64,000 bases of DNA. Origin: Aquisphaera giovannonii (GTDB taxonomy: Bacteria; Planctomycetota; Planctomycetia; Isosphaerales; Isosphaeraceae). Made by a program: the position numbers and the translations under genes. This document shows, piece by piece, positions 10,762 through 44,100 of the stretch. The stretch covers positions 8,556,001 through 8,620,000 of the forward strand of contig NZ_CP042997.1 of assembly GCF_008087625.1 (NCBI RefSeq), written 5' to 3'. Every line of letters begins with the position of its first letter. Positions within the stretch are counted from its first letter, which is position 1. Under the pieces are notes generated by a model. The model was not told the DNA's origin. It saw only the letters and a list, made by a program, of their open reading frames with translations, and did no database searches.

Positions 10762-10980
10762 TCACCCCGCCGCGACGGACGCGGCGGGCGCCTCGGCCGG
10801 GATCTCGCCCCGCCACTCGATCTTGTAGCGGTTGGACGCGGCGAACTCCTCGATCTTCGCCCTCGACTGGGGGATCTCGATGCGCGAATACTCGCGATAG
10901 AAGCCGCTCCCCGATCGCTTGTGCGCGACCTCCTCGCCGTACCACTTCCCGTCGAGGTAGTACACGACCAGAATCGTCAT
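10762..10980 (-). CDS. Small conserved-looking hypothetical protein (72 aa)
   Basis: 72 aa: it starts MTILVVYYLDGKWYGEEVAH and ends in an Ala/Pro tail. Composition (beta-strand start, charged middle) and near-exclusive G/C third positions mark it as a real gene. GGGAG lies 8 nt before the ATG. No domain is recognised. It is convergent with the VOC gene, with stops 24 bp apart. The open frame continues far upstream of the ATG, but that sequence is not protein-like, so the long version was rejected. Confidence 0.65.
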   Translation of the reverse strand: MTILVVYYLDGKWYGEEVAHKRSGSGFYREYSRIEIPQSRAKIEEFAASNRYKIEWRGEIPAEAPAASVAAG

Positions 10981-21274: not shown

Positions 21275-21399
21275 CGTCCACCCCTCCCGGACCGGAAAGC
21301 ATCGTCGTGCATGATGTTGCACGGTCGCTCCGCCCCATCATAGCCGCCCCCGGGCGGGGCGTAAAGCGCGCCCTCGGCCGTGGCCCCGGGCGCGCCACC

Positions 21400-22284
21400 T
21401 CAGCCGCCGAAGACGGCGACCGGCACGGGGATACGCTCGCGGAGCCGGGCCCCGATCCGGCCCAGCTCGGCGGCCTCCAGCGGGCCGACGGACCCCTCGG
21501 CCGGGGGCCTCGCCACGGTGTAGACCTGGACCTCGGCGATCCGCCCTCCGCCCTCCAGGATCTCCTCGAGCCGACGTGCGTAGGCGTCCAGCTCGTCCGG
21601 CGCGGGACCTTCGCCGTCGATCGTCATGAAGAGGCTCTGGATGACGATCGGCCGCCGCAGCGCGGCCCGGCGGAGATTGCCCAGCACGCGGCGGAACGGG
21701 ATGCTGGTCCGCCCGACGCGGCGGTAGAACGCCTCGGTGCCGGCGTCCAGCTTGGCCCAGATCTCGCCCCGGTTTTCATCCAGCGTCGCCAGGGCCTCGG
21801 CGACGGCCGGGCGGTCGAACATCGTCGCGTTCGTGATGAGCACGAGCTTCACCGCGCCCAGGCCGCGACGCCGCTTCAGCTCGGCGACGTCGCGGACGAC
21901 CGGGCCGAAGGCCGGGTACGTGGTCGGCTCCCCGTCGCCCGAAAACGCGATGTCGTTGAGCCGTCGGAGCGGCCCCGGCACGGACGCGAATCGCGGATCC
22001 TCGAAGAGCCGGCCGGTGCGGACCAGCTCCAGGGTCCCATCCAACTCGGCCAGGAGCCGCGGGCGATCGACCTCGCGGACCGCCGGCGCGACGTTGCGAT
22101 CGACCTGGCAGTAGACGCAGTCGAAATTGCAGGCCTTGTCCGGGTTGAGGTTGATGCCGACCGAGATGCCCCGGCTCCGCCGCGAGAGGACCGGGTAGAC
22201 GTAGCGATTCCCCCGGAAGAGACGCGCGTGGTCCCTGTGCGGGGGGAGGGTGCTCTCCTCGGGCGTTCGAGCCGTGGCGTCCAT
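21400..22284 (-). CDS. Radical SAM protein
   Basis: 294 aa. The [4Fe-4S]/SAM cluster motif is ACNFDCVYCQ, with cysteines 52, 56 and 59 in CxxxCxxC spacing. FSGDGEPTTYP is the glycine-rich SAM-binding strand, and LVLITNATM and AKLDAGT complete the half-barrel. The N-terminal YVYPVLSRRSRGISVGINLN plus overall length match the stand-alone radical SAM proteins often found in bacterial genomes (COG0731-like, wyosine-synthesis-related family). The reaction cannot be assigned. It is divergent from the membrane glycosyltransferase (192 bp) and possibly co-transcribed with the SIS-ROK pair downstream. Confidence 0.9.
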   Translation of the reverse strand: MDATARTPEESTLPPHRDHARLFRGNRYVYPVLSRRSRGISVGINLNPDKACNFDCVYCQVDRNVAPAVREVDRPRLLAELDGTLELVRTGRLFEDPRFASVPGPLRRLNDIAFSGDGEPTTYPAFGPVVRDVAELKRRRGLGAVKLVLITNATMFDRPAVAEALATLDENRGEIWAKLDAGTEAFYRRVGRTSIPFRRVLGNLRRAALRRPIVIQSLFMTIDGEGPAPDELDAYARRLEEILEGGGRIAEVQVYTVARPPAEGSVGPLEAAELGRIGARLRERIPVPVAVFGG

Positions 22285-22476
22285 CGCGGGTCCACCAGCA
22301 TGCCAGGGGTCGGGGGCCGGGTCCGGGAAGGGGCGTGGGGCTTTCCGCCCCGCTCCATTATCGCGGCCCGGAGGCCGGCATCGCCAGCGTGGAGGGCCCC
22401 GCGGCGAGGACGCGGGCCGGCGGTTCGGTTAGAATCGGTCGCCGGCTCGGGGCCGAGCGGGAGGTTCGAGCGTCGC

Positions 22477-24696: not shown

Positions 24697-24836
24697 GAAA
24701 AATCGGGGCCGACGCACGGATCCCGCCGCGGGAAAGCACTCATATCGGAAAGGGGCGAGATCCCCCGGCCCGACTTTCGCTTCGGCGGATCTCGCCCATG
24801 GTGCCCGACGTCCCCGTCCTCACGGGAGCATCCCGG

Positions 24837-26834
24837 ATGCGTCTGACTCTCCGCACACTCCTCGCCTGGCTCGACGACACGTTGCCCCCGTCCCAGGTCC
24901 GGGAGATCGGCAAGCAGGTCTCGAGCTCCCCCTTCGCCCGCGAGCTGGTGGAGCGGATCCACCGGGTCACCCGCCAGCGGCGGTACACGGTGCCGGGCAA
25001 GACCGGGCCCGACGCGACCGACCCGAATATCGTGGCCGGCTACGTGGACAACGACCTCGGCCCCGAACAGGTCGCCGAGTACGAGAAGAAGTGCCTCACG
25101 TCGGACGTCAACCTGGCGGAGGTGGCGGCCGTCCACCAGATCCTGAGCCTGCTCGGCCAGAAGGTGCAGGTGCCCGCCGAGGTGAAGTCGCGGATGTATC
25201 TCCTGGTCAAGGGGAGGGAATCGATCCCGCCCCCCCTCGCCAACGGCACCGCGGAGCGGCCTCGCGAGCCGGTGACCCGGCCGATCCAGCCCTGGGTCGC
25301 CCCCGAGCCGCCCAGGCGACACTGGGCGGAGCGGTTCGGCCCGATCGCGGCGTGCCTCGGCCTGATCGCCCTGCTGAGCTGGTCCGCCTACCAGAGCCTC
25401 GGACCCGCCCAGGAGCCGAGCGGCGACGTGGGCTCGCCCGCCGTGGCGACGAGATCCGCTCCCGTCGCGAAGAAGGCCGAGACGTCCCCGCCCCCGGCAC
25501 CCGAGGATACCGGCCCGCCCAACCCGCTGGAGGGGACGGAGAAGTCGGCCAGCTCCGCGACGCCCGGCCCGGACGCCGGCAGGGCGGGCGAAGCCGCCTC
25601 CAAGGAGGCGGACGCCAGGGCGGCCGAGACGGCCGCGGGCGGGCCCAGGCCCGCGGACGCGAAGGCCGCCGACGCCAAGGCCGCCGAGACGGCCGCGAAG
25701 CCCAGGGCCGTACCCGCCGGCGCCCTCGGGGTGGTCGACGGGGCCCGCGGGGTCTTGCTCCGGTTCGACAACGAAAAGCAGAGCTGGGAGAAGCTGGCCG
25801 ACGGGAACCCGCTGGCGGCGGGCGATCGGCTGCTCTGCCTGGCCCCCTTCCGCGCCCGCCTCGTGATCGGCCGGGTCCCGGTGACCCTCGTGGGCGAGAC
25901 CGCGATCCGGCTCACGGGCAAGGCCCCGGACGATCCCCCCTCCTTCGAGCTGGCCGACGGCCGCGTCCTCGTGGAGCCGGCCGCGGCCCCGGCGACCGTG
26001 CGGGTCGAGTACGCCGGCCACGCCGCGACGGTCGAACGGGCCTCGCCGGGGGCCATCGGCCTGGAACGGATGTCGCAATGGGTCTTCGGCAAGCCCGCCG
26101 ACGCGCCCGCGCCGCTGGCCATCTTCGCCGCGGAAGGGGACGTCTCCGCCGCCATGGGCACCGCGAAGGAGGCGCTGTCGGGGCCGGGGCGGATCGTGGC
26201 GGATGCCTCCGGCTCCTTCCGCTCGTCCGCGGACAGGACCGTCCCGGACTGGATGACTGGGGCGGACGCCGCCTCCAGGGATCCGAAGCCCGGCCAGCAG
26301 TTCCTGGCCAAGTTCGCCCCCGATCGGCCCGTCATCGCCGACATCGTCGTGCTGATCGACGACGACTCCCCGGCGATCCGCAATTACGCGATCCAGGGCA
26401 TCAAGGCGATGGGGGACCTCTCCTACCTGATGCCGATCCTCCGGCGTCCCAACGACCCGAGCTCCCGCGCGAGCACCGCCGCGGCCCTCCGCTCGTACCT
26501 CGGCCTGGGCCCCCAGGCCGTCCGCCGCGTGCAGCAAGGGCTCGACGAGGACCTCGGCCCCGAGGACGGCCGCGTCGTCCGGAAGCTGCTGGCCGGCTAC
26601 TCCGCCGAGGAGGCCGCCCAGCCGGAGACGCTGAGGCGGCTCGTCGATCTGCTCTCCCCGAAGGTCGAGTCCCTCGTCGTCCGCGAATTGGCCCTCGAGA
26701 ACCTGAGGACCATCACCGGCCGCGACGCCCTGGGCTACGATCCCGAGATGCCCGACGAGAAGGGGTACAACGCGTGGAAGAACCTGGCGAGCAAGGGCGA
26801 GCTGAAGCCGGCGGCGAAGCGGAAATCCGCATGA
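24837..26834 (+). CDS. Membrane protein with FecR-like and HEAT-like regions
   Basis: 665 aa. MRLTLRTLLAWLDDTLPPSQ followed by a helical cytoplasmic domain (1-130) is a recurrent planctomycete N-terminus; with VAGYVDNDLGPEQVAEYEKK it resembles the zinc-less anti-sigma type. A membrane helix lies at about 168-188 (FGPIAACLGLIALLSWSAY). An Ala/Pro/Glu linker comes next, then a FecR-like beta domain (about 300-410: RLVIGRVPVTLVGETAIRL) and a helical HEAT-like end (about 500-650). GGGAG lies 8 nt before the ATG; ATG 24798 is an alternative. It precedes the two giant genes at 27070 and 30597 on the same strand. A role as membrane-spanning signal or assembly protein is inference; no sigma-factor gene is adjacent. 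Confidence 0.75.
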   Translation: MRLTLRTLLAWLDDTLPPSQVREIGKQVSSSPFARELVERIHRVTRQRRYTVPGKTGPDATDPNIVAGYVDNDLGPEQVAEYEKKCLTSDVNLAEVAAVHQILSLLGQKVQVPAEVKSRMYLLVKGRESIPPPLANGTAERPREPVTRPIQPWVAPEPPRRHWAERFGPIAACLGLIALLSWSAYQSLGPAQEPSGDVGSPAVATRSAPVAKKAETSPPPAPEDTGPPNPLEGTEKSASSATPGPDAGRAGEAASKEADARAAETAAGGPRPADAKAADAKAAETAAKPRAVPAGALGVVDGARGVLLRFDNEKQSWEKLADGNPLAAGDRLLCLAPFRARLVIGRVPVTLVGETAIRLTGKAPDDPPSFELADGRVLVEPAAAPATVRVEYAGHAATVERASPGAIGLERMSQWVFGKPADAPAPLAIFAAEGDVSAAMGTAKEALSGPGRIVADASGSFRSSADRTVPDWMTGADAASRDPKPGQQFLAKFAPDRPVIADIVVLIDDDSPAIRNYAIQGIKAMGDLSYLMPILRRPNDPSSRASTAAALRSYLGLGPQAVRRVQQGLDEDLGPEDGRVVRKLLAGYSAEEAAQPETLRRLVDLLSPKVESLVVRELALENLRTITGRDALGYDPEMPDEKGYNAWKNLASKGELKPAAKRKSA

Positions 26835-27069: not shown

Positions 27070-30000
27070 TTGACTCGCATCGCCTGGCTCGTGGCGGCAA
27101 CGGCTGCGCTCTCCCTGTCGCGCGGCCTCACCTCGGACGCGCGGGCGCAGGGCCGGGCCCCGTCGCAGGCGAGGGGTGCGACGGGCGGCGCGGTCCGCCC
27201 CCCATCCCCCGCGGACGGGGGGGGCGGCGAGGCGGCGAAGGCGGCGACGGATCGGCTGCCGGACGAGTTCGTCATCCTCAACAACGTCGGCGACTTCGAC
27301 GAGTTCCTGAAGCGGCTGAAGCAGCCCGACTGGATCTTCATGCGCCCGGGCGCCCAGGTCGTGGCCGCCGCCGGTGCGGCGCAGGCCCCCGCCGCCCGCG
27401 ACTTCGTCGTGAAGCGGGTCGCCATTCGGGGACGCGTCGTCGGCGAGCTCGCCGACCTGCGGCTGGAGCTCGACCTTGAGCTGATGGCGCGCGGGGAGGC
27501 CTGGGTGCCGCTCGGGATCCGCAGCCAGATCGTCACCTCGGCGAGGGAGCGCGACCAGGAGCTTGAGCTCCGCGGGGCCGGGGAGGGCCGGTGGGACGTC
27601 CGCCTCCGCGGCACGGGGGAACACCGGATCGTCGTCGCGATGGAGCGCCCCTTGCGCGTCAGCCCGGATCGGACCCAGCTCGAGGTCGCCATCCCGGAGG
27701 CCGCGTCCACGTACCTGGAGCTCGACGTGCCGCAGGCCGTCCGGGACGTGGGCCTCGGGCCCGGCGAGTCGATCGCGACGGCCCCCCTGCCCGACGGCCT
27801 CGGCACGCGGCTCACGGCCCACCTGGCGCCGCGATCCAGCCTCGCCGTGGCCTGGACCAACCAGGACGGCGCGGGCAGCCCGCTCCCGCCGCTGCTGACG
27901 GCGCAGGTGGAGATGGCGATGGACGCGGACGCGGAGTCGATGACGACGCGGTCGTCCTGGGTCATCCGCTGCGTGCGCGGCCAGGCCCGCCGGCTGGAGA
28001 TCCGGCTCGACCCCACGGACGTCGCGCGCCAGGTCAAGCTCGACGACCAGTTCATCGCGGCCGGGATCGAGGGGAACGTCCTGACCATCCCGCTGGGGGA
28101 GCCGCTCCGGCCGGGCGACACCCGGCGGCTGATGATCGAGACCCGCCGCGGGTTCCCCCCCGGGGGAGGCCGAAAGTTCGCCTTCAACGGCCTGCCGCTG
28201 GCCGGCGCGGCGGAGCAGACCGGCGCGATCGCGCTGACCCAGGCGCCCAACCTGTGGCTGGACATCTCCGCGGCGGCGGGCCTGCGGCGGATCGACCCCC
28301 GCGAGCTGCCCACCGACCTCCGGACGCGCCCGGGCACGAGCATGGCCTTCCAGTTCCTGGACCAGCCGTTCCAGCTCTCGCTCTCGGTCGAGGACTCCCC
28401 GCCGCTCTATCGGGCCTCGACCGCCACGCGGATCGTCCTCGACGGGGAGGCCGCGCGGGTGGAGATGTCGGCGGAGATCCAGCGCGTCCGCGGGCGGCTC
28501 TTCGAGGTCCTGGTGGACATCCCGCCCGGCCTGGAGCTGACGTCGGCGGGCCCGCCGGACGTGGTGGAGTCGGTCGCCACGGCCGAGGAACCGGCGGCCG
28601 GCCCGCGGGGCGGCGGGCCGGCCTCCACCGCCGGGAAGCTCGCGCGGATCCACCTCACGGCGATGGCCCGCGACCTGGCCTCGATCCCGCTCAAGCTGGG
28701 GGGCCTCCAGCGGATCGGGGCCGACGGGGAGGTGGGCCTCGCCCTGTTCTCGCCGCGGGGCGACGTCGCGACGAGCGGGACCGTGGCCGTCCTGGCCCCT
28801 CGGAACGTCACCCTCGACGTCCCGGACGCGGCGCCCGGCGCCGACGGGTCGTCCGGATTCCGGAGCCTGGCCGGCGAGGACCGCGCCGCCGTCGTGACCG
28901 GCGCGGGCGGCGGGGGACGCGTGCCGGTCGCCGTGCTGGCCTCGCAGGGCAACCCCTCGCGGCTGCGGGGCCGCCTGGTCCGCCACCGGACGGAGATCTC
29001 CCACGACGTCAAGGTCGCCGCGCGGATCCTCGAGGGCTGGGTGGACGTCCGCCAGGAGACCGCGGTCGAGGTGCGTTACGGCTCGGTCCGCGAGCTGCAC
29101 GTCCTGGTGCCGGTCGCCCGGCGCGAGCTATGGCAGGTGAAGGGCAGGCCATCCATCACCGTCGGCGAGCTGGAGCCGGCCGCAGACGGCCGCCCGGCGC
29201 GATGCCGGCTCACCTTCGACCCGCCGATCGAGGACGCGACCACCCTGACGTTCAGCATGCGGCAGCCGATCACGCGGGCGGCAGGCCCGGACGCTCCGGC
29301 CGCGGGCAAGGTCTCCTGGGCCCGCATCGAGGAGGGGAAGGCGGCTGGCGTCGCGGTCGAGCTGAGCACAGCACCGGGGGTGATGGCCGACGTAGACGCC
29401 AGCGGCTGGGAGTCGCCCGAGGCGCGCGGAGACGCCGGCACCCCCGCGATCTACCGCCTGACGGGCGCCGGGGCGAACGACGGCCTGCCGTTCACGCCCA
29501 GGCGGGCCGAGCGGGCGGCGCTGCCCCCCCTGGTGGCGCCCCGCGCGCTGCTGCGGACGTCGCTGGGCCCGGACGGCTCGTGCCGGACCCAGGCCTGGTT
29601 CTGGATCGAGGACCATCCCGGCCACGCCGAGCTGGCCCTGCCGGCCGGCTCGCAGTGGATTCGGGCGCGGGTCGACGGGCGCCTGGCGGAGCAGGTGGAG
29701 CGGGCCGCCGAGGGCGACGCCTATCGGATCCCATTCCCGCCCGAGTCCGCCGGCCATCCCGTCCTGCTGGACCTCGAGTACCAGGCCGGGGTGGCCTCCG
29801 GGCGCGACTGGGCCCCGCCGGAGCTGCGCGGGGGGGCCGCGGTCCTGCAGTCGCTCTGGGAGGTCCGGGTCCCGTGGAACCAGGCGGTGGTCGGCGTGCC
29901 GGCCGGGTGGGACGACGAGAATCAGTGGTACTGGGACCTCTACGCCTGGAAGCGGCGGCCGCGGAGGCCGTTCGCCCGGCTGCTCGAGTGGCTGTCCGCC

Positions 30001-30549
30001 TCCCGGCCGGCGGAGGGGATCGCGGACGACCCGATGGCCGACTCGCAGGACGAGACGCACGCCTACCTGTTCGCGAGGCCGGGCCCGCCGTCGGCGATGC
30101 GGCCCCGGGTCGCCTCGCGGGCCTGGCTCCTGGCCGTCTGCTCCGGGGCCGTCCTGGCGGCGGGATTCTGCGCGATGTTCGCGAGGAGGAGGCCGCGATT
30201 CCTGGCCCCGGCCCTCGCCTCCGCGGCGCTGCTGGCGATGGCCGTCGTCGACCCGAGCGTCCTGCTCCTGGCGGCCCAGTCGTCGATCTGCGGCGTCCTG
30301 CTCGTGCTGCTGGGATTGGCCACCCGCCGCTACATCGACGGCGTGCCGGCGGCGGCCGCCGCGGCCTCCGCCCCTGGGGTGGGGGGCGGCTCCGGGATCG
30401 CCGAGCTGCCCGCGTCGCGGGTCGGCTCGGACGACTCGACGGCCGTCCGGAATCGCCCGTCGTCGACCATGGACTACGCCTCGCCGCTGAGCTTCTCCGC
30501 CGGCCCGGACCCGACGACGGGGTCGCGCCTGGGCCAGGGTGGGCGATGA
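27070..30549 (+). CDS. Large exported beta-rich protein with C-terminal membrane helices
   Basis: 1,159 aa. The TTG start at 27070 is supported by AAGAAGG 9 nt upstream and by a signal peptide immediately following (MTRIAWLVAATAALSLSRGL, cleavage near ARA-QG). About 950 residues of beta-rich sequence follow without a recognised domain. Two or three hydrophobic helices come near the C-terminus (about 1015-1090), then a short Gly/Ser tail. The predicted topology is a large extracytoplasmic body anchored by C-terminal helices. The same architecture recurs twice in the next gene. Its stop is 47 bp from the next start codon, so the two form an operon, perhaps including the FecR-like gene 235 bp upstream. 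Function unknown. Confidence 0.75.
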   Translation: MTRIAWLVAATAALSLSRGLTSDARAQGRAPSQARGATGGAVRPPSPADGGGGEAAKAATDRLPDEFVILNNVGDFDEFLKRLKQPDWIFMRPGAQVVAAAGAAQAPAARDFVVKRVAIRGRVVGELADLRLELDLELMARGEAWVPLGIRSQIVTSARERDQELELRGAGEGRWDVRLRGTGEHRIVVAMERPLRVSPDRTQLEVAIPEAASTYLELDVPQAVRDVGLGPGESIATAPLPDGLGTRLTAHLAPRSSLAVAWTNQDGAGSPLPPLLTAQVEMAMDADAESMTTRSSWVIRCVRGQARRLEIRLDPTDVARQVKLDDQFIAAGIEGNVLTIPLGEPLRPGDTRRLMIETRRGFPPGGGRKFAFNGLPLAGAAEQTGAIALTQAPNLWLDISAAAGLRRIDPRELPTDLRTRPGTSMAFQFLDQPFQLSLSVEDSPPLYRASTATRIVLDGEAARVEMSAEIQRVRGRLFEVLVDIPPGLELTSAGPPDVVESVATAEEPAAGPRGGGPASTAGKLARIHLTAMARDLASIPLKLGGLQRIGADGEVGLALFSPRGDVATSGTVAVLAPRNVTLDVPDAAPGADGSSGFRSLAGEDRAAVVTGAGGGGRVPVAVLASQGNPSRLRGRLVRHRTEISHDVKVAARILEGWVDVRQETAVEVRYGSVRELHVLVPVARRELWQVKGRPSITVGELEPAADGRPARCRLTFDPPIEDATTLTFSMRQPITRAAGPDAPAAGKVSWARIEEGKAAGVAVELSTAPGVMADVDASGWESPEARGDAGTPAIYRLTGAGANDGLPFTPRRAERAALPPLVAPRALLRTSLGPDGSCRTQAWFWIEDHPGHAELALPAGSQWIRARVDGRLAEQVERAAEGDAYRIPFPPESAGHPVLLDLEYQAGVASGRDWAPPELRGGAAVLQSLWEVRVPWNQAVVGVPAGWDDENQWYWDLYAWKRRPRRPFARLLEWLSASRPAEGIADDPMADSQDETHAYLFARPGPPSAMRPRVASRAWLLAVCSGAVLAAGFCAMFARRRPRFLAPALASAALLAMAVVDPSVLLLAAQSSICGVLLVLLGLATRRYIDGVPAAAAAASAPGVGGGSGIAELPASRVGSDDSTAVRNRPSSTMDYASPLSFSAGPDPTTGSRLGQGGR

Positions 30550-30596
30550 CGGCCGCCCCCGGGCACCAGGCGTCCTCGTGAGTGGGAAGCATCATC

Positions 30597-33500
30597 ATGC
30601 GACTCTTTTCCAGGCAGACGGGTCCACGGGGGGCGGCCATCGCCCGGGGCTGCCTCGCGCCGCTGGCGATGCTGGTCGCCCTGGCGAACGCCGGCCCGGC
30701 CCCGGCGGGGGAGCCGCCGCGGGTCGCCAGGATCCGGGTGCCGGCCGCGAAGGTCGCGGACTGGTTCCCCGCCGGGACGCCGCTCAGGATGATCTCGCCG
30801 GCGGAGCTGGACGGGCTGCTCCGCGCGGCGGCGAAGGGAGACGCCGCGGCCGGTCCCGACGGGCCGCGGCTGGTCCGGGCTCGCCACCGTGCCCGGTGGG
30901 ACGGCAAGTCGCTGGCGGGCCGGTCCGAGCTGGTGGTGGAGCCGCCCGCGGCGGGGACCGCCCCGCTCGCCCTGGACCCGTGGACCCCCACGATCCGTCC
31001 CGCCGAGGGGGTGCGTCCGCCGATCGGCTCGCTGGCGAACGGCCAGGCCGTCGTCCTCCTCGGCCCGGACGCGGCCCCCCGGCCGGGGGCCGCCGGCCCG
31101 CCGGCCGTCGCGACCGTCGTCCTGGAATGGGAGCAGCCGGCGCTCCCGGACTCGGAAGGCCGCAGCTTCGCGTTGGGCCTGCCCGGGGACGAGTCGACGG
31201 TCCTGACCCTCGAGCTGCCCGAGGGCTCGACGCCCACCGGGCCGGAGGGCCCCCGCGAGGGCCCGCTCGCGGCCGCGGGGGCCGGCGAGAGGTCGTGGAC
31301 GTTCCACGGGCGCCCGGGCTCGATGAACCTGCGGATCCACGACGCGAGGCGGCCGCGCCACGCCCGGGACGGGGACCTCGTGTGGGTGGGCGGCGACACC
31401 CGCATCGACCTCGGGCCGGGGCCGAGGCTCGACCCCCGCGCGGCGAACTGGCGGGCGGAATGGACCGTGCAGCCCGGCGCGAGGGGCTCGCTCGAGTTCG
31501 CGGCCGAGCTGGATCCGGGCCTCGAGCTGGTCGACGTGGTCGGCCCAGACCTGAGGGAGCACCGGGTGACCCGGCCGGGGGGCAGGACGCGCATTCGGGT
31601 CGTGCTGGGCCGGCCGGCCGGCCCCGAGACGAAGGTCACCTTCGTGGCCCACGCGAAGGTGCCGATGGAAGGCGTCTGGAGCGTCCCCGCGATCCGGCCC
31701 GTGGACGCCGTCTGGACCGGCGGCAGCACGACGATCCGGCTCGACCCGCTCCGCGTCGTGGCGGATTGCCGCGAGCGGGCCGGCCGGCGGGTGCCCGCGG
31801 CCGGCGACCCCGGGGGGGGCGATTCCCTGGTCTTCGAGGCGGAGTCGCCCCAGTCGGTGGCCGACCTGGTCTTCCGCGCCCCCGCGAGGGCGACGACCTG
31901 CCGCGTGTTCGGCCGCATGAAGGCGGACGGCTCGGGCGCGGGGCTCGAATGCCAGGTCTTCGGGCTGGGCGGCCAGGGGACGGCCGTGGAGCTCGAGGCC
32001 GAGTTGTCGCCGGGGTGGTCCCCCAGCCGCGTCGCCTGGGGCGGCGCCGAGCAGGCCCTCGCCTGGAACCACGCTCCCATGCCCGGGGGGGGGACGCGGC
32101 TCCGGGCGATCCTCCCCGCCGGGGAGGGCACGGCCGGTGCCGGCGTCCTGCGAATCGAGGCCACCTCCGCGGCCTCGGCGGGACGCCAGCCGCTGTCGCT
32201 GCCGCGGGTCCGGCCGATCGGCGTGGCCGTCGAGGATGAGGTCTGGGTCGCGATGGCGGATCGGGGCACCCGGCTCACGCCCACCTCGGCCCGGGGCCTG
32301 GCCTGGGTCGACGCCTCGAACGCCGGGGACCCGGCCCGCTTCGCACCGCCGCCCCCGGGGATGCAGGCCGCGTTCGCCTGGCGATGGGTCGGCGACGACG
32401 GCGAGGCCCGCGTCGATCGCGATCGCATCGAGCCGGCCGCCCAGGCCGAGGTCTCCGCGAGGGCCCGGATCGACCGCGGGGGCCGCCGACTGCTCGTGGA
32501 GGGCGAGATCGCGCAGAGCGGCCCCGCCGACCCCGGCGGGCTGCCCGTCTGGATCGGCGGGCCCGAGGACGACGCATCCGCCTGGACGTTCCGCGAGGCC
32601 GACGATGGCGCACCGATCGCCTCGCGGCCTTTGACGGCGGAGGAGCGGGCCCGCTGGGGCTTCCCGGGTGCGGGCCTCGCCCGGTCGCTGGATCTCCCGC
32701 GCCCGCCGGGCGGGAAGGCCCGAGTCGCCTTCCGCGCGGCGATCGACTGGGAGGGGCGGGGGCCGGTCCCCCTGCTCACGGTGCCGACGCAGTACCGGCC
32801 GAGGGCCGTCCTGCTCATCGAGGCCCCGCGCGAGCTGCCGACGAGCGCGCGGGCCGTCGGCGCGTCGCGGATCGACGCCGGGGTCGCCGAGAGGATGGCC
32901 GAGACCTGGCGTCGAGCGGGCCCCCAGGCCTCGGAGGCCCGCGACGCCTTCGCGGTCGCGCATGCCTTCTCGTACCGGGACGCCGGGGCCTCGGTCACCC
33001 TGGCCACGACGGCGCTCCCCGAATTGGCCTGGCGCGGGGTCGTCCGCGATGCCACCCTGACCACGCTCCTGCACCCCGACGGGCCCCGGCCCAACCGGCT
33101 GAGGCTGCTCGCGCAGATCGAGCCCGGCGCGAACCTGGGCTTCCGCCTGCCGGCCGGCGCCTCGCTCATCCGCGCCCGGGTCGACGACGAGGACGCCCCG
33201 GTGCTCTCGCGGGACGGCGGGCTGGCGGTCGTGACGCCGGCGGCCGCCGCGTCGCCGCGGCCGCGGACCATCGACCTGGACTACGAGACCGCCGGGGCCG
33301 CGCTGGCCGATGGCCTCGCGATCGCGCCGGCCTCGCCCGCCGTGGACATCCCCTGCCTGTCGTTCACCTGGGAGCTGGTCGCCCCCCCGGGCTGGCTCGC
33401 GGTCGCCGGCGGGGGTGACCTGCTCGCGACGGACCCGGAGGCCTCGCCGAGGTGGCCGTTCGAGCTCCTCGGCGTCCCGGCCCTGCCCTGGCGCGGGGCG

Positions 33501-36500
33501 GATCGATCGGCCTCGACCGTCGCGGAGGCGACCTGGAAGCGGCTCGACGAGAGCCTGTCGGGCCTGGCCGCGGGGGAGACGGCGCTCGCCGGCTGGCTCA
33601 CGCGGTGGGATGCCGCGCCGGCGCCGGTCGTCGTCGATCGCGTGTCGCTGGCGGCCGTCGGCTACGGGCCGAGGACGCTCTGCAGCATCCCACGCGACGC
33701 GACGGGCGAGTCCGTCGCCCGCCAGGCCCTCCGGCGCCATGGGCTGGCCCTCGTCCCGATCGACGGCGCGCTCGTCGTCACCACGGCCGCGGCCCTCCCC
33801 GACTTCGAGGCGAACCGCGCGTGGAAGCCGGCGGTCGGGGAGGCCCTCCTCTGGGGGAGCGACCGCTCCGATCGCCTCCAGGGCGTCGCCCGCTGGCGCG
33901 GGGAGTTCACCCCGGGCGGGGCCGCCGGGACGCCGGACTCCGCGACCTTCCGCCCGATGCCCGGCTGGTCCGCCTGGCACTTCGCCGGCGTGTCGTGGCC
34001 CGGGCCGTCGACGCGGGCGCGGATCCGCGATGCCCGCGCGGCCACCGCCCCGGGGTGGGCGATCGCCGCGGGCCTGTCGCTCGCGATCGCGTCCCTCGGC
34101 GCGAGGATGCCGGCCCGACGCGCCCTCGCGCTCCCGATCGCCCTCATGGCCGTCTGCGTGGCGGGGCGCCTCTGGCTGGGGGAGACGTTGTCCGGGCCGC
34201 TCGCCGGTGGATTCGTCGGTTCGGCGACCGGCCTGCTCCTGACCCTCGGCAGCACGATCTCGGCCCGCAACCTGCGCCGCCAGCCCGCCCAGGGCCCCGG
34301 CCACGCGGGCGTCGGCATCCGCCTCACCCGCTCGATGGCGCGCATCACTCCGCCGGCGGCGGCCCTGCTCCTGCTCCACGCCGCCACGGCCGCGGGCCGG
34401 GAGGACGCCCCGATCCCGATCCTCTTCCCCTACGAGGGGACCTATGAGCCGGGCCGGTTGCCGGCGCAGGTGGTGCTCCGGCAGGGGGACTATGAGGCCC
34501 TCCGCCGCATGGCGCGGCCGGCGCACGCGGCCGAGGCCCCCGGCCTCGTCCTCCTGGAGGCCCTGCACCGCGTCTCATGGCGTGGCGAGGATGACCTGGA
34601 CGTGGCCAGCGATCTCACGCTCCTGAAGTCGGATGGGCCGGCAGGCCGCTGGATCATCCCCGTGGACGGGTCCAGGGAGATCCGGGCGACCCTCGACGGG
34701 CAGGCGGTCCCCGTCTTCATCGAGCCCGGCGGCGCGAAGGCCGGCGTGTCCATCGACGGGGCGGGCCGGCACGAGCTGAAGGTCCGGCGGATCGTGGCCT
34801 TGCGGCCGGGCGACGCGTCGGGGGGGACGGAGGTCCCCGTCAACCCGCATCCCTCGGCGCGGCTCGTCGTGGAGAAGCCGCCGGAGGGACGGCAGGCGTA
34901 CGTCCCCGGCCTCGGCGGCGACGGGAAGCCCGGCGCGGACGGCTCGATCCGGGCGGCGATGGGGCCGGCCGGCCGCGTCGAGATCCGCACCGGGGCACCG
35001 GACGGCGGCGGCGTGCGAGCGGCGGGCACCAACATGGAGGGCCTGCTCCTCTACGACATCCAGCCCGCCGGCGACCGCCTCCGGGCCCGATTCACCTACC
35101 GGGGGTCGAGCCCCCTGCCCCGCGTGAGCTTCCTGGTGGACCCCGCGCTGATCCCGCGTTCGATGAAGGTCCCCGGCCTCGTCGCGGGGACCTGGGGCGG
35201 GACGGAGGAGGAGCCCGTCTGGACGGCCCGCGTCGACCCCCCGTTGCGAGACGGCGCGGTGGTGGAGCTCGACCTCTGGCGGCCGAGGGCGAAGGTGCGA
35301 AAGGGCGGCCCCGGCGGGCCCCAGGAGGGCGCGGCCCCCGCGGAGACCGGCCTGGACTACCCGCGCCTGGAGCCGCTCCAGGTGGACCGCTACTCGGGCG
35401 CGCTGGGCGTCCGCCGGCCGGGCCACTGGACGGGCCGGGTGGAGCCGCTCCGCGGGGTGGAGCCGCTCACCGACGAGGGCTTCGTCAAGCTTTGGGGGCC
35501 CCTGCCGGACGACCGCCTGACGCTCTGCGGGACGACGCGGCTGGGGCGCGACGACCGGCCGGAATTCCGCACCGAGCCCGGCGTGGCCCGGGTGCGGGTC
35601 CGGCCGGCCCTCGAGCTGACCATCGAGGAGGGGCGGATCCTGCTCCAGTACGACGCCGAGCTCGCCGACTCCGGAGGCGCGATCGACCACCTGGACCTGA
35701 CCATCCCCCAGGGCCTGGAGGTGATGAGTGTCGACTCCGAGGGCCTGACCGCCTGGACCCGGAGGTCGCCCCGATCCGTGGCGTTGCGATACGACCGCCC
35801 CATGCCCGCCCCGCGTCGGCGGCTCTCGATCGCCGGATGGATCGCCGTCCCGGAGGAGGCCGCGAGGCGAGGCGGGCGGGCCCATCGCCTGCCGACGCCG
35901 TGGATCGAGGTCGCCGGCATGGAGTCGCTCCCCGGGTCCCTCGCGGTTGCATCCGACGTGCCCGCGAGCCTCGCCGCGCCGCCGGGGGCCGTCACGGCGG
36001 CCTCGGCCGCGACCGCCGCGACGGCGGCGAAGTCGCCCGCGGGCAAGGCGTGGAACCAGGCGTTCCGGGTGGACGACCAGGCCCGGCTGGGGACGCTCTC
36101 GTGGACCCCCGCGCCGCCGCGTGTGGACGTCCGCATCGACAGCCAGGTGACGCTCGGCCCGGACGCGGCGGAATGGGTGGCCGCGCTCCGCCTCGACGTC
36201 CGGGGCGGCCCGCTCGAGTCGGTCCGGCTGAGGATTCCCAGGCCCTGGGCCGCGGCCGCGACGGCCCGCTTCGACGGCGAGCCGCCCCGACGACCCGCCG
36301 AGGACAGGAGCCCCGCCAGCACCTGGACCCTCACGCCGGATCGCCCCATCTGGGGGTCCCGGCGGCTGGTGATCCGATCCTCGATCGCCCTGACGGCCGG
36401 CCAGGAGATCCAGCACCCCGAGATCATCCTCGCCGGCGCCTCGTCCGTCGAGACGTACCTCGCGCTCGCCTACCCGGAGGGCTCGCCCCTCACGACGGCG

Positions 36501-37814
36501 GGTTCCAGCGCCTTCCAGCAGGTCGCCTACGCCGGCCGGTTCCGGGACGAGGAGTTCCGGCTCCTCCCCGGCATGCAGGCGAGGGCCTTCCACGTCGAGC
36601 GGGACCCCTGGTCGCTGAAGGTGCAGCTCCCCCCGGCCCCGGGCGCGTCGCGGGGGGACGCGGACGCGACGGCACGGGCCGTCTCCGCCGAGATGGACCT
36701 CACGGTGCTGCCCGACCGGTCGGTGCGCGGGCGTTCCGTCTTCGAGGTCCAGCCGCGATCCGGACGCTTCCTCGCGGTGGAGCTCCCGCCCGGGGGCGTG
36801 ATGCTATGGGCGACGGCCGACCAGGCACCGGCCCGGCCCGTCCGGGCGGCCGACCTCCGCTGGCTCGTGCCCCTGGGGGACCGGGCGGCCTCGCAGGTGG
36901 CGGTCTTCTGGGGAGCCCCGCCGCCCGAGGCGGGCCGCGCCGGGGCGGCATGGTCGCAGCCGATCCCGGCGGCCGGGCCGGACCGCGTGCCAGCACGCGT
37001 GACGATCCGCGTGCCGGAGGGGCTGGCCGTCCGCGCGGTCTCCGGCGAGCTGGAGGCCACGACGGCGGACCGGCTGATCTTCGACCGGGCGGACCGGATC
37101 CGGCGACAGGCCGGCGAGTTCATCAACCAGATGGACCGCGGATCGAGCCGGGATCGCGAGCACGTCGCGGGCCTCCTGATCGCCCACGAGCTGAGCTTGC
37201 GGGGCGCCGACCGGTCCATCCGCTGGTCGTCCCGGCACCTCGCCGCCGACCGCCGGGAACGGGCCGAGCGCGACCTCGCCGTGATCCAGTCCGCCCGCAA
37301 GGGCATGCTCGAGACCCTGCACGCCGCCGCCCTCGACGACGAGATCGCCGCCGGGCAGTCCTACCTGGGGGCGGGGCCGGCCCCCTCCCCGGCGGCCATC
37401 TCCGTCGCGGAGCCCGTCGCCGGCGACCGCATGCGCGGCCTCGGCAGGCCGGCATTCCTGCTCGGCATGGTCCCCGGGCTCTCCGACGTGCCCGCGGCCG
37501 TAACCCTCGCGGGCGTCGACCAGCCCGTCGCCTCGGAGGGCGAGACGGCCGACCGCGCCCGCTCCATGTTGATGCTCGGCGTGCTCGCGGCGATGGGCCT
37601 GGCCGCGGTCGTCCGGCCGCATCCGGGGGCATGGGGCCTGTTTATCCTCGGCGCGACGCTCGGCCTGCTGGCGTTCCTCGGGGGCCCGCTCCCGACCGCG
37701 GCGGCCGCCCTCGCGGCCTTCGCCGGCCGACTGTCCCGCGGCGCGGCGTCGCGGCCGTCGCGGCCCGCGGCCGAGCCTTCCTCACTCCGCCCCATGCCCG
37801 CGGGGACCGCCTGA
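30597..37814 (+). CDS. Giant exported protein made of two fused signal-peptide/beta/TM units
   Basis: 2,405 aa from the ATG at 30597 (GGGAAG 7 nt upstream); an in-frame GTG at 30582 is an alternative. Unit 1: signal-like segment (CLAPLAMLVALANAGPAPAG), about 1,130 residues of beta-rich sequence, then several membrane helices (about 1150-1230, ending LLLTLGSTISARNL). Unit 2 begins at Met 1247 (base 34335) with MARITPPAAALLLLHAATAA, which looks like a complete signal peptide with an AAG-R cleavage site. It then repeats the plan and ends with helices around residues 2325-2385. Short correspondences between units (HRVSWRGEDDLD; HRARWDGKS) and with the 27070 protein suggest common ancestry. No domain of known function. 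Fusion of two former genes is the simplest reading. Confidence 0.72.
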   Translation: MRLFSRQTGPRGAAIARGCLAPLAMLVALANAGPAPAGEPPRVARIRVPAAKVADWFPAGTPLRMISPAELDGLLRAAAKGDAAAGPDGPRLVRARHRARWDGKSLAGRSELVVEPPAAGTAPLALDPWTPTIRPAEGVRPPIGSLANGQAVVLLGPDAAPRPGAAGPPAVATVVLEWEQPALPDSEGRSFALGLPGDESTVLTLELPEGSTPTGPEGPREGPLAAAGAGERSWTFHGRPGSMNLRIHDARRPRHARDGDLVWVGGDTRIDLGPGPRLDPRAANWRAEWTVQPGARGSLEFAAELDPGLELVDVVGPDLREHRVTRPGGRTRIRVVLGRPAGPETKVTFVAHAKVPMEGVWSVPAIRPVDAVWTGGSTTIRLDPLRVVADCRERAGRRVPAAGDPGGGDSLVFEAESPQSVADLVFRAPARATTCRVFGRMKADGSGAGLECQVFGLGGQGTAVELEAELSPGWSPSRVAWGGAEQALAWNHAPMPGGGTRLRAILPAGEGTAGAGVLRIEATSAASAGRQPLSLPRVRPIGVAVEDEVWVAMADRGTRLTPTSARGLAWVDASNAGDPARFAPPPPGMQAAFAWRWVGDDGEARVDRDRIEPAAQAEVSARARIDRGGRRLLVEGEIAQSGPADPGGLPVWIGGPEDDASAWTFREADDGAPIASRPLTAEERARWGFPGAGLARSLDLPRPPGGKARVAFRAAIDWEGRGPVPLLTVPTQYRPRAVLLIEAPRELPTSARAVGASRIDAGVAERMAETWRRAGPQASEARDAFAVAHAFSYRDAGASVTLATTALPELAWRGVVRDATLTTLLHPDGPRPNRLRLLAQIEPGANLGFRLPAGASLIRARVDDEDAPVLSRDGGLAVVTPAAAASPRPRTIDLDYETAGAALADGLAIAPASPAVDIPCLSFTWELVAPPGWLAVAGGGDLLATDPEASPRWPFELLGVPALPWRGADRSASTVAEATWKRLDESLSGLAAGETALAGWLTRWDAAPAPVVVDRVSLAAVGYGPRTLCSIPRDATGESVARQALRRHGLALVPIDGALVVTTAAALPDFEANRAWKPAVGEALLWGSDRSDRLQGVARWRGEFTPGGAAGTPDSATFRPMPGWSAWHFAGVSWPGPSTRARIRDARAATAPGWAIAAGLSLAIASLGARMPARRALALPIALMAVCVAGRLWLGETLSGPLAGGFVGSATGLLLTLGSTISARNLRRQPAQGPGHAGVGIRLTRSMARITPPAAALLLLHAATAAGREDAPIPILFPYEGTYEPGRLPAQVVLRQGDYEALRRMARPAHAAEAPGLVLLEALHRVSWRGEDDLDVASDLTLLKSDGPAGRWIIPVDGSREIRATLDGQAVPVFIEPGGAKAGVSIDGAGRHELKVRRIVALRPGDASGGTEVPVNPHPSARLVVEKPPEGRQAYVPGLGGDGKPGADGSIRAAMGPAGRVEIRTGAPDGGGVRAAGTNMEGLLLYDIQPAGDRLRARFTYRGSSPLPRVSFLVDPALIPRSMKVPGLVAGTWGGTEEEPVWTARVDPPLRDGAVVELDLWRPRAKVRKGGPGGPQEGAAPAETGLDYPRLEPLQVDRYSGALGVRRPGHWTGRVEPLRGVEPLTDEGFVKLWGPLPDDRLTLCGTTRLGRDDRPEFRTEPGVARVRVRPALELTIEEGRILLQYDAELADSGGAIDHLDLTIPQGLEVMSVDSEGLTAWTRRSPRSVALRYDRPMPAPRRRLSIAGWIAVPEEAARRGGRAHRLPTPWIEVAGMESLPGSLAVASDVPASLAAPPGAVTAASAATAATAAKSPAGKAWNQAFRVDDQARLGTLSWTPAPPRVDVRIDSQVTLGPDAAEWVAALRLDVRGGPLESVRLRIPRPWAAAATARFDGEPPRRPAEDRSPASTWTLTPDRPIWGSRRLVIRSSIALTAGQEIQHPEIILAGASSVETYLALAYPEGSPLTTAGSSAFQQVAYAGRFRDEEFRLLPGMQARAFHVERDPWSLKVQLPPAPGASRGDADATARAVSAEMDLTVLPDRSVRGRSVFEVQPRSGRFLAVELPPGGVMLWATADQAPARPVRAADLRWLVPLGDRAASQVAVFWGAPPPEAGRAGAAWSQPIPAAGPDRVPARVTIRVPEGLAVRAVSGELEATTADRLIFDRADRIRRQAGEFINQMDRGSSRDREHVAGLLIAHELSLRGADRSIRWSSRHLAADRRERAERDLAVIQSARKGMLETLHAAALDDEIAAGQSYLGAGPAPSPAAISVAEPVAGDRMRGLGRPAFLLGMVPGLSDVPAAVTLAGVDQPVASEGETADRARSMLMLGVLAAMGLAAVVRPHPGAWGLFILGATLGLLAFLGGPLPTAAAALAAFAGRLSRGAASRPSRPAAEPSSLRPMPAGTA

Positions 37815-38106
37815 CGCCCGGACGACGAAGCCTCCCCGGACACCTCACCACGAGCCGGAAGCCATAGCCTCCCGCCGGTTCACCCGCGCGGGAATCGAGT
37901 CGTCGCCCCACGAGACTTCGATCGTCCCGGTGCCGCACGCGAGGAAGCTCGGGCAGAGGGGAGGCATGTTCCGAGGGGAGTTCTCACACGGCGCCCTGCG
38001 CTTTAGGTTTCTCCGGAGCTGGCGTCTCCCCCAGGGTCGGCGTTGCGAAGGTCGCACCGTCGACGACGTCGTCGAGCCGGCTCCCGCCCGCCAGGACGCA
38101 TCCCGC

Positions 38107-41100
38107 ATGAGTCGCCAGCCTCGCTCGACCCGCCGCCCTCGGAAGCCCGCCCGCCGCGCGATCCCGAACGCCGCGGAGGCGCGGCTTGAGCCCAGGATGA
38201 TGCCCGCGGTCATAACCCCGTTCGCGGTCCGGTACTCGTCGAACGCCAACGGCGACATCGTCTTCGCGGCGAATACGCTGATGACCTCGCCCGGGAACAC
38301 CTCCGCCGCCGTGAACGCGCGGAACGGGACCGGGAGCCAGGTCAACAACAACGACTTCTCCCAGGTCTACGTCGACGCGGACTCCGACCCCTCGACGTTC
38401 GACTCCAGCGCGGCGAACCTCTCGCTGCCGGCCGGCGGATCCGTCCTGTTCGCCGGCCTCTACTGGGGCGCCGATTCGTCCTCGAGCAGCCGCAACAAGG
38501 TCTCGTTCAAGGCCCCGGGGGCCTCGTCCTACTCGACCGTGACCGGCACGATCATCGGCTCGACCTCGGACAACAACTACCAGGGATTCTCCGACGTCAC
38601 CTCCACGGTCCGGGCCGCCGGGGCCGGAACGTATGCGGTGGGCAACGTCCAGGCGACCACGGGCACCGACGAGGAGGCCGGGTGGTCGCTCGTCGTCGTC
38701 TACGGCGACCCCTCCGCGCCGCCGCGGAACCTCACCGTCTTCGACGGGTTCGCCGTGGTGGACTCGAAGACGCCCAACGTCACCATCCCGATCAGCGGCT
38801 TCAAGGCCCCCCTCACCGGCACGGTCAACGCGAGCCTCGGCTTCGTCAGCTACGAGGGGGACCTCGGCTTCACGGGCGACGCGGTCAAGTTCAACGGCAC
38901 GACCCTGTCGGACGCGCAGAATCCGGCCGACAACTTCTTCAACAGCACCATCAGCAACCGCGGCTCGCTGGTGACGACGAAGAGCCCCAACTACGTCAAC
39001 CAGATGGGCCTGGACGCGGACATCATCTCCAAGTCCGGCCTGATCGCCAACGGCGCGACCTCGGCCTCGATCGCCCTGACCACCGGCGGCGAGACGTACT
39101 ATCCGGGCGTCGTCACCACCGCCATCGACCTCTACGCCCCGATCGTCAGCGTGTCCAAGTCGGTCGTGGACCTCAACGGCGGCGGAGTCGAGCCGGGCGA
39201 CGTCCTGGAGTACACAGACACCATCAGCGTCACCGCGGGCGAGGCCGCCACCCAGTTCGTCTACGCCGAGCCGATCCCGACGAACGCCACGTTCCAGGCC
39301 GGCTCGCTGACGATCAACGGCTCCTCCCAGACCGACGCCTCGGGCGACGACCAGGCCGACTACCAGGCCGCACTCGGCAAGATCACCTACCGCCTGGGCA
39401 CCGGCGCCTCGTCGTCGGCGGGGGGCACGCTGGCGGTCGGGCAGTCGGCGACGGTCAAGTTCCGGGTCGTCGTCAATGGCACGGCGTTGAACGGCGACGT
39501 GGTCGATTCTCAGGGCTCGGCCGCGTTCGTCGGCCAGTCCACGGGGGCCAGCCTCACGGCCACCAGCAACGACGTCCGGAAGGTCGTCGCCCGGGAGGAG
39601 GACCTCGCCCTGACGCAGACGGTGGACAACCCCACGCCCCAGGTCGGCCAGACGATCAAGATCGACCTCTCGGTCGTCAACTCGGAAGACGTCGTGGTCT
39701 CCGGCGTCGCCGTGAAGGACCTGCTGCCGGCGGGCCTGACCTACGTCTCTTCCACGCCCGCTGCGGGGACGACGTACGACCCCACCACCGGCACCTGGAG
39801 CGTCGGCACGGTGGACGGGCTCTCGCCGCTGACCCTGACCATCTACGCGAAGGTCGTCGGCACCGTCGCAGTGACCAACACGGCGACGATCACCGCCTCC
39901 GGCTCGCCCGACTCCGACACGGCGAACAATGTCGCCTCCGTGACGATCACGCCGCAGGTGGCCGACCTGTCCCTCACCAAGGCGGTGGACGTCGCCAGGC
40001 CGAACGTCGGCGACACGGTCACGTTCACCACGACGGTGAACAACCTCGGCCCCGCCGCGGCCTCGGGCGTCAGCATCCAGGACGGGCTGCCGGCCGGCTT
40101 CTCGTTCGTCTCCGCCTCCGGCGGCTCGTATTCGAACGGGACGTGGACCCTCTCCTCCGTGCCCGTCGGGACGACCACGCTGACGATCAAGGCCGTCGTG
40201 AGCAGCCCCTCGGCCGCGACGATGACGGCCACGATCCTGGGCAGCTCGACGTACGATCCGGCCTCGTCGAACAACTCCGCGTCCGTCTCGGTCACGCCCC
40301 GGCAGGTGGACGTCGCGATCACGAAGTCGGTGGACGTCGCGCAGCCGAACGTCGGCGGGGCCGTCGTCCTGACGACGAGGGTCAGGAACCTCGGGCCCGA
40401 CGCCGCCACGGGGATCGTCGTCCTCTCGCCGGTCGGCGCGGGGCTGACGATCGTGAGCGTCTCGGCCCCCGCGGGCACGACCTACAACCAGGCGACGGGC
40501 GTCTGGACGGTCGGCTCGCTGGCGCCGTCCGGTCAGCTCACCCTGGCCGTCACGGCGACGGTCGCCTCGCCCGACCTGATCACGAGCTCCGCCTCGCTCT
40601 CGGACGTGGACCAGTACGACACGGTCGCCGGCGACGACTCGTCGTCGATCACCGTCTCGCCGCAGTCGGCGGACCTCGCCCCAACCATCACGCTGAGCAC
40701 GTCCTCGCCGGTCGTCGGCCAGAACGTGACGCTGACCGTCCAGGTCACGAACTCGGGCCCGAACGCCGCCACCAACGTCAAGATCGCCGAGACCCTGCCG
40801 GCCGGCTTCCAGTACGTCTCGTCCTCGGCCGACGCGGGGACCTATAGCTCCGCCACCAATTCCTGGAGCCTGGCCTCCATCGCGTCCGGCCAGACGCGGA
40901 CGCTGACGATCGTCGCCAGGGTCCTCTCCACCGGAGCCGCGACGAGCACGGCCTCGGTCGCGGCCGCGGACCAATACGACCCGAACGCGGGGAACAACTC
41001 GGCGTCGGTCACCAGCTCGGCGGTCCAGGTGGACCTGGCGCTGGCATCGGCCTTCTCCGACTCCAATCCGAAGGTCGGGGACACGGTCCGCTACGTCATC

Positions 41101-44100
41101 ACGCTGACCTCGCCGGGGACGGCGGACGCGACCGGGGTGCAGGTTTCCGCCCCCTTGCCGGCCGGCCTGACGTTCGTCTCCGCCTCCGCCGGCGCGGGGA
41201 CGTATGACTCGGCTTCCGGAGCCTGGACCGTCGGCGCGGTCGCCCACGGCTCGACGACCCTCCTGACCATCCAGGCGAAGGTCGGCCCCGCGGCCACCAC
41301 CAGGACGACGGCCACGGCCTCCCTCTCGCCGGCCCCGTCGGGCGACGCGGTGGCGTCCAATAACGCCGCCTCGGCCTCGCTGACGGCCCAGTCTGCCGAC
41401 CTCGCGTTGACCGTCTCGACGGACAGCACCACGCCGAAGATGCAGTCCACGATGACGTTCACCCTGACGGTCACCAACCGGGGGCCGGGAGACGCCACGA
41501 ACATCGTCGTGCAGCATCAGCCCATCCCCACCGGGTTGACGTTCGTCGGGTTCTCCGGGGACGGCAGCTACGTCCCGGGGACCGACGTCTGGAACCTCGG
41601 CTCGATGGTCCTGAAGCCGGGCCAGTCCGCGACCCTGAGGATCCAGGCGACCCCGACCGACTCCGACCCGCACACGATCTCGGCGAGCATCGTCGCCTCC
41701 GATCAGTACGACGGCGACGACTCCAACGGTTCGGCCTCGGTGACGTTCGAGGCCCAGGAGGCGGAGCTGGGCGTCTCGGTGGACCTCCCGGAGACGGCCC
41801 CGACGCCCGGCGAAGCGGTCTCGATCGTCGTCCACGTGACCAACAGCGGGCCGGACGCCGCCACCAACGTACGAGTGCAGACGGCGCTGCCGCCGGGGCT
41901 GACCTTCGTCTCCGCGAGCGGTACCGGGACGTACCAGGCGGCGACGGGCCTGTGGACCGTCGGCGGCCTGCCGTCCGGGGCGGCGGGCACCGTCTCGCTG
42001 ACGATCAACGCCATCGCCACGAGCTCGTCCTCCGGGGATTTCACCGCGACCATCCTGCCCCAGGAGCAGTACGACTCCATCCCCGACGACGACTCCGCCT
42101 CGGTCCTCGTCTCGCCCCGGGCCGCCGGCCTCTCGGTCGCGACGGCCGTGGACGACGCCACCCCGAACGTCGGGGACGCCGTGACCGCGACCGCCACCGT
42201 CACCAACGCCGGCCCCGACACGGTCACCAACCTCGTCATCCACGTCGTCATCCCGGACGGCACGACGCTCAGCTCTTCGATCGTCCCCGACGGCACGACC
42301 TACGACCCGGCCACCGGCACGTGGACCATCCCCAGCCTCGCACCCGGGGTCCCGATCTCCCTCCCGCTCAAGCTCCTGGTCGGAGATCCGGCCGTCAAGC
42401 CATTCTCCGCCTCGCTCCAAACCGTGGACGCGTTCAATACGGACCCCGATCACACCGCGTCCTCCGTCGCGATCACCCCGCAGCAGGCCGACCTGTACGT
42501 CGCCGCGACCGCCGACGTGACCCGGCCGGACGCGAACCAGGTCGTCACCTTCACGTTCACGCTCAGCGACCTGGGCCCCGACCCGGCGACCAACACCTCG
42601 GTCTCGATCCCGATCCCGTCCGGCTACACCTTCAGCTCGGCGTCGGCGACGGTCGGGTCCTATGACTCGGCGGCCGGCGTGTGGACCGTGGGCACGGTCG
42701 CCCCCGGCACGCCGGTCGTCCTGACCTTGCAGGCGGCCGTGACGGCGGCCACCGTCCCGCCGATGGTCGCGACGATCTCCGGCGCCGACCAGTACGACGC
42801 CAGCCCCGCCAACAACACGGCCAGCGTCTTCATCAAGCCGAGGACCGTGGACCTGGTGATCGGCAAGGTGGTCAGCGACCCGACGCCCAACGTCGGCGAC
42901 ACCGTCTCCTACACGATCGTCGTCAAGAATGGCGGCAACGACGATGCGACCGGCGTGGCCGTCTCCGAGGTCCTGCCCACCGGAATGGTCTACGTCAGCT
43001 CGTCCGGCGACGGCTCCTACGACGACACCACCGGCGTGTGGACCGTCGGCTCGGTCGCAAAGGGCGGCGAGGCGACGCTGAACCTGGTCGTGACCGTGGA
43101 CACCGGCTTCTCGACGATCAACACGGCGACGGTCTCCGCCGTCGACCAGTTCGACGTCGACTCCGCCAACGGGGCCGCGACGACCACGGTCGATCCCCTT
43201 CAGGCGGACCTCCTGCTGACGACCGTGGTGGACGACCCGAGCCCCCTGGTCGGCCAGTCCGTCACGTTCACGATTGACCTCAAGAACCTCGGCAAGGACG
43301 GAGCCGGCGGCGTGGCCGTGACGGTCAGCCTGCCCGCCGGCCTCACGCTCGACACGTTCAACGCACCGGCCGGGACCTCGTACGACTCCACCACCGGCAT
43401 CTGGACGATCGGCGCCGTCGCGGTGGGCGAGACGACCTCGCTGACGATCACGGCGACGGTCGGGACCACCGACGCCTCGACGCTCACCGCGGCGGTCACC
43501 GCGGACGACCAGTTCGACCCCAACGTCAACGACGACTCGGCCTCGGCCACCGTCCGGGCGCAGACGGCCGACCTCGGCCTCAAGTTCACGATCGACCAGC
43601 CGAGGCCCGCCAAGGGCCAGTTCATCACCGCCACGCTCGACCTCACGAACGCGGGCCCGGACGACGCGACCGGCGTGACGGTCCGCGTGCCGATCCCCGC
43701 TGGCTTCGAGCTCGTCTCGCCCATCCCCTGGGATGGCAGCTACGACCAGGCCACGGGCGTCTGGACCGTCGGCAATGTGGCGGCCGGGAGCTCGACCCGG
43801 CTCATGCTGGGCCTCCAGGTCCTCTCCGGCGACCCGGCCACGCTGACGGCCCAGGCGACGGCCGACCAGGAGGACCCGGCCCCGGACGACGACAACATCG
43901 CGGCCGTCGTCACGCCGCTCGTCTCCGGCCTCTCGATCGCGACGGTCGTCGACGACGACCGGCCCAACTCCGGCGAGCTCATCGCGTTCACCGTCACCCT
44001 CGCCGACGCCGGCCCGGACGACGCCCCGAACGCCCTCGTCCAGGCCCTCCTGCCGGCCGGACTCGTCTACGTAGGCTCGCAGACGACCCGCGGGACGTAT

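Follow-up and report, generated by a model that had tools for sequence, protein, structure and literature searches.

The window analysed here is the whole 64,000-nucleotide stretch of Aquisphaera giovannonii DNA (contig NZ_CP042997.1, forward strand), and all coordinates are given within it. Two adjoining genes, A and the fused gene BC, lie on the plus strand. A preliminary description of the longer frame had taken it for a fusion of two exported proteins, with a signal peptide in mid-chain. Our analysis supports this reading, and the two halves, B and C, are moreover paralogues with a third copy upstream. The features are listed below, with a slash marking a predicted cleavage site.

27070–30549, + strand: gene A, third paralogue, 1,159 aa; adjoins BC upstream, with profile homology to both halves
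30597–37814, + strand: fused gene BC, 2,405 aa from the ATG; an alternative GTG at 30582 would add 5 aa
30597–30707, + strand: predicted N-terminal signal peptide of half B, residues 1–37, site GPAPA/GE (hydropathy and AxA site)
30708–34043, + strand: beta-rich body of half B, residues 38–1149 (profile A1); paralogue of half C and gene A
34044–34262, + strand: three transmembrane (TM) helices closing half B, at about 1150–1168, 1175–1195 and 1203–1222 (family-mean hydropathy, AlphaFold)
34263–34349, + strand: basic linker, predicted cytoplasmic, putative n-region of the internal signal peptide (charge, disorder in the model)
34350–34397, + strand: h- and c-region of the putative internal signal peptide, residues 1252–1267 (short predicted helix, AxA enrichment, acidic residues behind)
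34398–37541, + strand: body of half C (AlphaFold model me459e69d3f94, mean pLDDT 76.7; profile A2)
34542–35006, + strand: beta saddle of half C resembling the M1-aminopeptidase N-domain, residues 1316–1470 (VIA-align)
35583–36656, + strand: tandem beta-sandwiches of half C resembling ribophorin I/Ost1, residues about 1663–2020 (VIA-align, Foldseek)
37542–37739, + strand: three-helix membrane anchor at the C-terminus of half C, AlphaFold helices 2316–2339, 2346–2362 and 2364–2381 (also hydropathy)

Three paralogues and their surroundings

The BC frame (30597–37814) runs through 2,405 codons without an internal stop, and GC3 is 0.94–0.97 in each full 600-base block. The absence of a separating stop, as first described, is thus borne out by an open frame with a coding signal throughout. 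Met1247 was verified at base 34335 and is directly followed by MARITPPAAALLLLHAATAAG-REDAPIPI. The membrane helices placed earlier at about residues 1150–1230 correspond to three helices at about 1150–1225 in both hydropathy and AlphaFold, and a second beta-rich body with terminal helices of its own lies further along the chain. At the other end of the chain, a signal-like N-terminal start is also seen in most BC orthologues. Neither gene A nor BC matches any Pfam or NCBIfam family above cut-off, and the family orthologues of half B and half C have no Pfam match.

Single-sequence comparison was too weak to establish paralogy among A, B and C, and profiles decided the matter. Profile-profile comparison gave E values of 2.9e-22 for B versus C, 7.9e-32 for A versus B, and 3e-27 for A versus C, each alignment being collinear over about 820 columns, while controls with one profile reversed gave nothing significant. 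All three share a common plan of an N-terminal signal, a beta-rich body (beta-sandwich) and three membrane helices, and BC therefore consists of two complete units joined. Only 47 bases separate the stop of gene A from the ATG of BC. Gene A stands before BC wherever the loci reach far enough upstream, in the family, the class and the phylum, and the two genes are probably in the same operon. The tail of gene A (30400–30480) carries a near-invariant VGSDDSTAIRxRxxST motif, predicted to be cytoplasmic and kept across Isosphaeraceae.

Two further genes are syntenic upstream of A in Isosphaeraceae. One (21307–24696) encodes a PMT_2-type GT-C glycosyltransferase (Pfam E 4.8e-8); within the limited class-level stretches, no such gene was found beside A outside Isosphaeraceae. 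The other (24834–26834) encodes a protein with one membrane helix, FecR-like by eye and with a sub-threshold HEAT match. In six loci from outside the family (L096, L103, L105, L107, L109 and L110), the gene adjoining A upstream appears inositol-monophosphatase-like, a call made by eye from its start sequence. Downstream of BC, the frame at 37930–46653 encodes a 2,907-aa protein with 19 DUF11-type repeats; none of the related loci that were fetched contains a match to it.

Conservation of the fusion and anatomy of the junction

Searching with half C gave matches in 33 of 45 genomes of the same family, mostly frames of 2,300–2,500 aa. Both halves lie in a single open frame at 30 of the 34 family loci fetched, the remainder being fragments or loci without BC. 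In the 24 of these that are complete, the halves are homologous and in register. Fused BC is present in the finished chromosome of Singulisphaera acidiphila DSM 18658, in Aquisphaera insulae of the same genus (about 60% identity over the fused protein) and in Paludisphaera soli. Profile searches recovered gene A together with fused BC in most sampled families of the class and also in other classes of the phylum. The BC frame is shorter in some genomes of one family (f3), at about 1,600 aa. The question of one gene or two in orthologues, posed with the preliminary description, is thereby answered by a single fused frame in most sampled lineages of class and phylum. Open-frame length alone is no strong evidence at 70% GC. 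The fused frame is found at GC down to 48%, where a stop-free extension of 1,200 codons is not expected by chance. Judged from these comparisons, BC is a real, old fusion across Planctomycetota and not an artefact. Three candidate unfused frames were rejected: contig ends cut the 1,267-aa frame that resembled a separate B (G044), and likewise those at L124 and L125.

Family-mean hydropathy peaks at residues of about 1160, 1185 and 1210 (membrane helices), 1255 (signal-like), and 2330 and 2355–2370 (C-terminal helices). Across 27 family orthologues, the order is a helix, a basic loop (+3), two more helices, a basic linker, a short hydrophobic core, small residues, acidic residues and then body C. 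The linker has a mean net charge of about +6 over these orthologues, and the signal-peptide anatomy is kept in all 27. AlphaFold modeling of residues 820–1659 placed helices at 1146–1170 and 1173–1227, disorder at about 1229–1252, and a 13-residue helix at 1253–1265, past which confidence is low again before a new beta domain begins. A single continuous fold spanning residue 1247 is absent from this model, and the claim of separate halves survives. An odd number of predicted helices (three) before the internal signal, with the basic linker behind them, fits a chain end in the cytoplasm. The junction is accordingly predicted, from model and sequence, to obey the positive-inside rule, with a new inside-to-outside signal following.

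At L123, a locus from another class, separate genes encode A, B and C. Gene C there has its own ATG 48 bases past the stop of B, and where fused BC has the internal segment, its product starts with the signal peptide MNRVIVRVCVLAACLAVVLRSAVRA/EESS. This unfused case rests on one metagenome-type assembly. The gene A tree, with moderate support, places L123 inside a group in which, L148 aside, every other complete member is fused. This nesting among fused lineages suggests that the split is probably secondary, exposing the internal signal as an N-terminal one. Secondary or not, the sequence of L123 presents the segment as a predicted N-terminal signal. L148 (G208) has an in-frame TAG at 10778–10780, which could be an error, decay or recoding; it falls within TM3 of a frame that is fused in all other respects, and the locus was not accepted as a clean split. 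L147 (G215) is a complex array that appears to carry more than one A/B/C set, with extra helices ahead of the internal signal.

Probable processing of the internal signal

The best SPase I-like site of the internal segment lies after A1265 (HAATA/AG), with alternatives after A1266 or G1267. Using hand-set, approximate SPase I preferences, the AxA site score in the family had a median of 5.35 for the internal segment versus 1.7, 2.4 and 1.3 for TM1–3, respectively; true N-terminal signals scored 3.7 on the same scale. At 28 loci outside the family, the same hand-set scoring gave 5.46 versus 1.0–2.1 for TM1–3 (p = 6e-5, with rows that are not independent). Sites outside the family are often textbook examples, such as ...SVATAHA/QN, ...SPARA/AEP and ...NAQA/GPV. 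These scores are to be read with the alanine richness of the A/B/C proteins in mind, as AxA is frequent by chance and certain C-terminal helices also score high. The enrichment favours cleavage by SPase I, most likely at about residues 1265–1267 of BC.

The preliminary description had left three options open, namely a fusion whose second signal became a membrane segment, an internal Met that is still used, and a stop lost in sequencing. The first is correct as to the fusion and the inside-to-outside signal role of the segment. Its plain TM helix fits less well, since the predicted helix is short and an AxA c-region recurs, features suggestive of a cleavable signal peptide instead. If the chain nevertheless stayed uncut, the internal segment would serve as a fourth TM helix (a signal anchor), and a single chain would carry two large ectodomains joined via four helices. 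The fusion and topology evidence is equally compatible with this arrangement, several orthologues (L050, L052 and L057) have no good AxA site, and by the crude measure of charge-free run length, the internal segment (median 17) is no shorter than TM1–3. Against it, the predicted helix (1253–1265) is flanked by chain modelled at low confidence and, with its 13 residues, would hardly span the membrane comfortably; AxA enrichment over TM1–3 recurs in two separate sets of loci; and the unfused homologue in L123 employs the segment as an N-terminal signal peptide. We regard the uncleaved chain as unlikely, though it is the most serious of the alternatives.

That half C is also made separately, with translation beginning internally at Met1247 or at another start codon close by, is far less probable. 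The ATG at 34335 does immediately precede the signal-like segment, and the closest congener (L031) likewise has a Met there. However, an in-frame ATG occurs in the linker of just 9 of the 27 family orthologues, rising to 18 of 27 when any of ATG, GTG and TTG is counted. Nothing resembling a Shine-Dalgarno sequence can be seen upstream of 34335, but such a motif is frequently missing in planctomycetes. The option of an internal Met in use thus found no support. A stop codon or frame boundary erased by sequencing error or recent mutation, leaving genes that are really separate, can be practically dismissed. The three genes of L123 and the TAG within TM3 of L148 would fit such a history, but the fused frame recurs in dozens of independent assemblies, the finished S. 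acidiphila genome included, and at GC down to 48%, and we reject a stop lost in sequencing.

We consider it likely that BC is an ancestral fusion in which an internal signal restarts export of C and is cut by SPase I, yielding two anchored subunits.

Fold of half C and a proposed double precursor

The AlphaFold model of half C has a mean pLDDT of 76.7 and a pTM of 0.35, and the latter value makes the arrangement of its domains unreliable. Within it, the beta saddle at 1316–1470 resembles the N-terminal domain of M1 aminopeptidases (ERAP1, LTA4H and PepN), with VIA-align Z of about 12–12.6 and an rmsd of about 3 Å over 135–152 residues. Pfam found no M1 catalytic family in half C or its orthologues. 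The best fold match is ribophorin I/Ost1 (Foldseek E about 1e-7 to 1e-9), a membrane protein that carries M1 N-type tandem beta-sandwiches, an arrangement half C may share. The tandem region at about 1663–2020 aligned to it with Z 15.7 over 347 residues and Foldseek E 5e-8, but the rmsd of 19 Å overall limits this to a domain-by-domain likeness. Superposition is poor overall (rmsd 16–19 Å), and half C has no detectable sequence similarity to ribophorin I/Ost1. Profiles A1 and A2 gave no credible match against PDB chains. In the model, the domains of half C are scaffold-type beta-sandwiches, and the shared fold reveals no function. We weighed, and did not adopt, an OST-like complex involving the PMT-type enzyme encoded nearby; in the stretches covered, that neighbour is seen in Isosphaeraceae only. 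A by-eye resemblance of half B residues 977–1075 to an STN/secretin N-domain has no Pfam support and was likewise set aside.

A known precedent for such an arrangement is FbcH, the cytochrome b-c1 precursor of Bradyrhizobium japonicum, in which two membrane proteins are made as one chain and signal peptidase cuts an internal signal peptide after insertion. BC similarly holds two membrane proteins in one chain, the second behind a putative internal signal peptide whose cleavage we infer from site anatomy. Whereas FbcH joins two unrelated respiratory subunits, BC joins two paralogues of a giant family, and the junction is old across a phylum. Giant genes of planctomycetes are given as counts in the relevant part of PMC5352709. 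BC belongs with them as a gene of more than 5 kb, from Isosphaeraceae and of envelope type; that part describes no internal signal or fused paralogues. The fused uvrA pair of planctomycetes (PMC8567305) is a paralogue doubled within one frame in the same phylum as BC, but its product is cytoplasmic and without an export signal, unlike BC.

The anatomy and the comparative evidence suggest the following pathway. The array, ancestral in planctomycetes, would comprise three paralogues, A, B and C, each an exported membrane protein, with B and C joined in one frame. The N-terminal signal would send body B over the cytoplasmic membrane, and the three helices of B would stop, return and stop, leaving the chain end in the cytoplasm. 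The basic linker and the short hydrophobic segment would then form a second Sec signal, internal to the chain, from which export of body C begins. Signal peptidase I would most likely cut past the AxA site, at about 1265–1267, as the conserved site anatomy indicates, and the three helices at the C-terminus of C would hold that half in the membrane. In this way a single messenger, translated into a single chain, would supply two membrane-anchored subunits at a 1:1 ratio. From paralogy and operon conservation, B and C presumably assemble with A into a scaffold in the periplasm or at the cell surface. In its broadest form, which we put forward tentatively as something that may or may not hold, BC would be a phylum-wide double precursor that is exported twice, by way of two signal peptides, and from which signal peptidase releases two paralogous subunits at 1:1; with A, these would form a planctomycete-specific three-paralogue envelope complex.

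To our knowledge, cleavable internal signal peptides are rare in bacteria. Here, an internal export signal appears conserved across a phylum, in a widely kept gene pair for very large envelope proteins. Annotation pipelines would predict one giant multi-pass protein from BC, possibly with the wrong topology and mature size. BC bears on the question of whether processing of the polyprotein type persists in bacteria over long spans of evolution, and A, B and C together point to a planctomycete envelope complex, in cells whose membranes remain debated.
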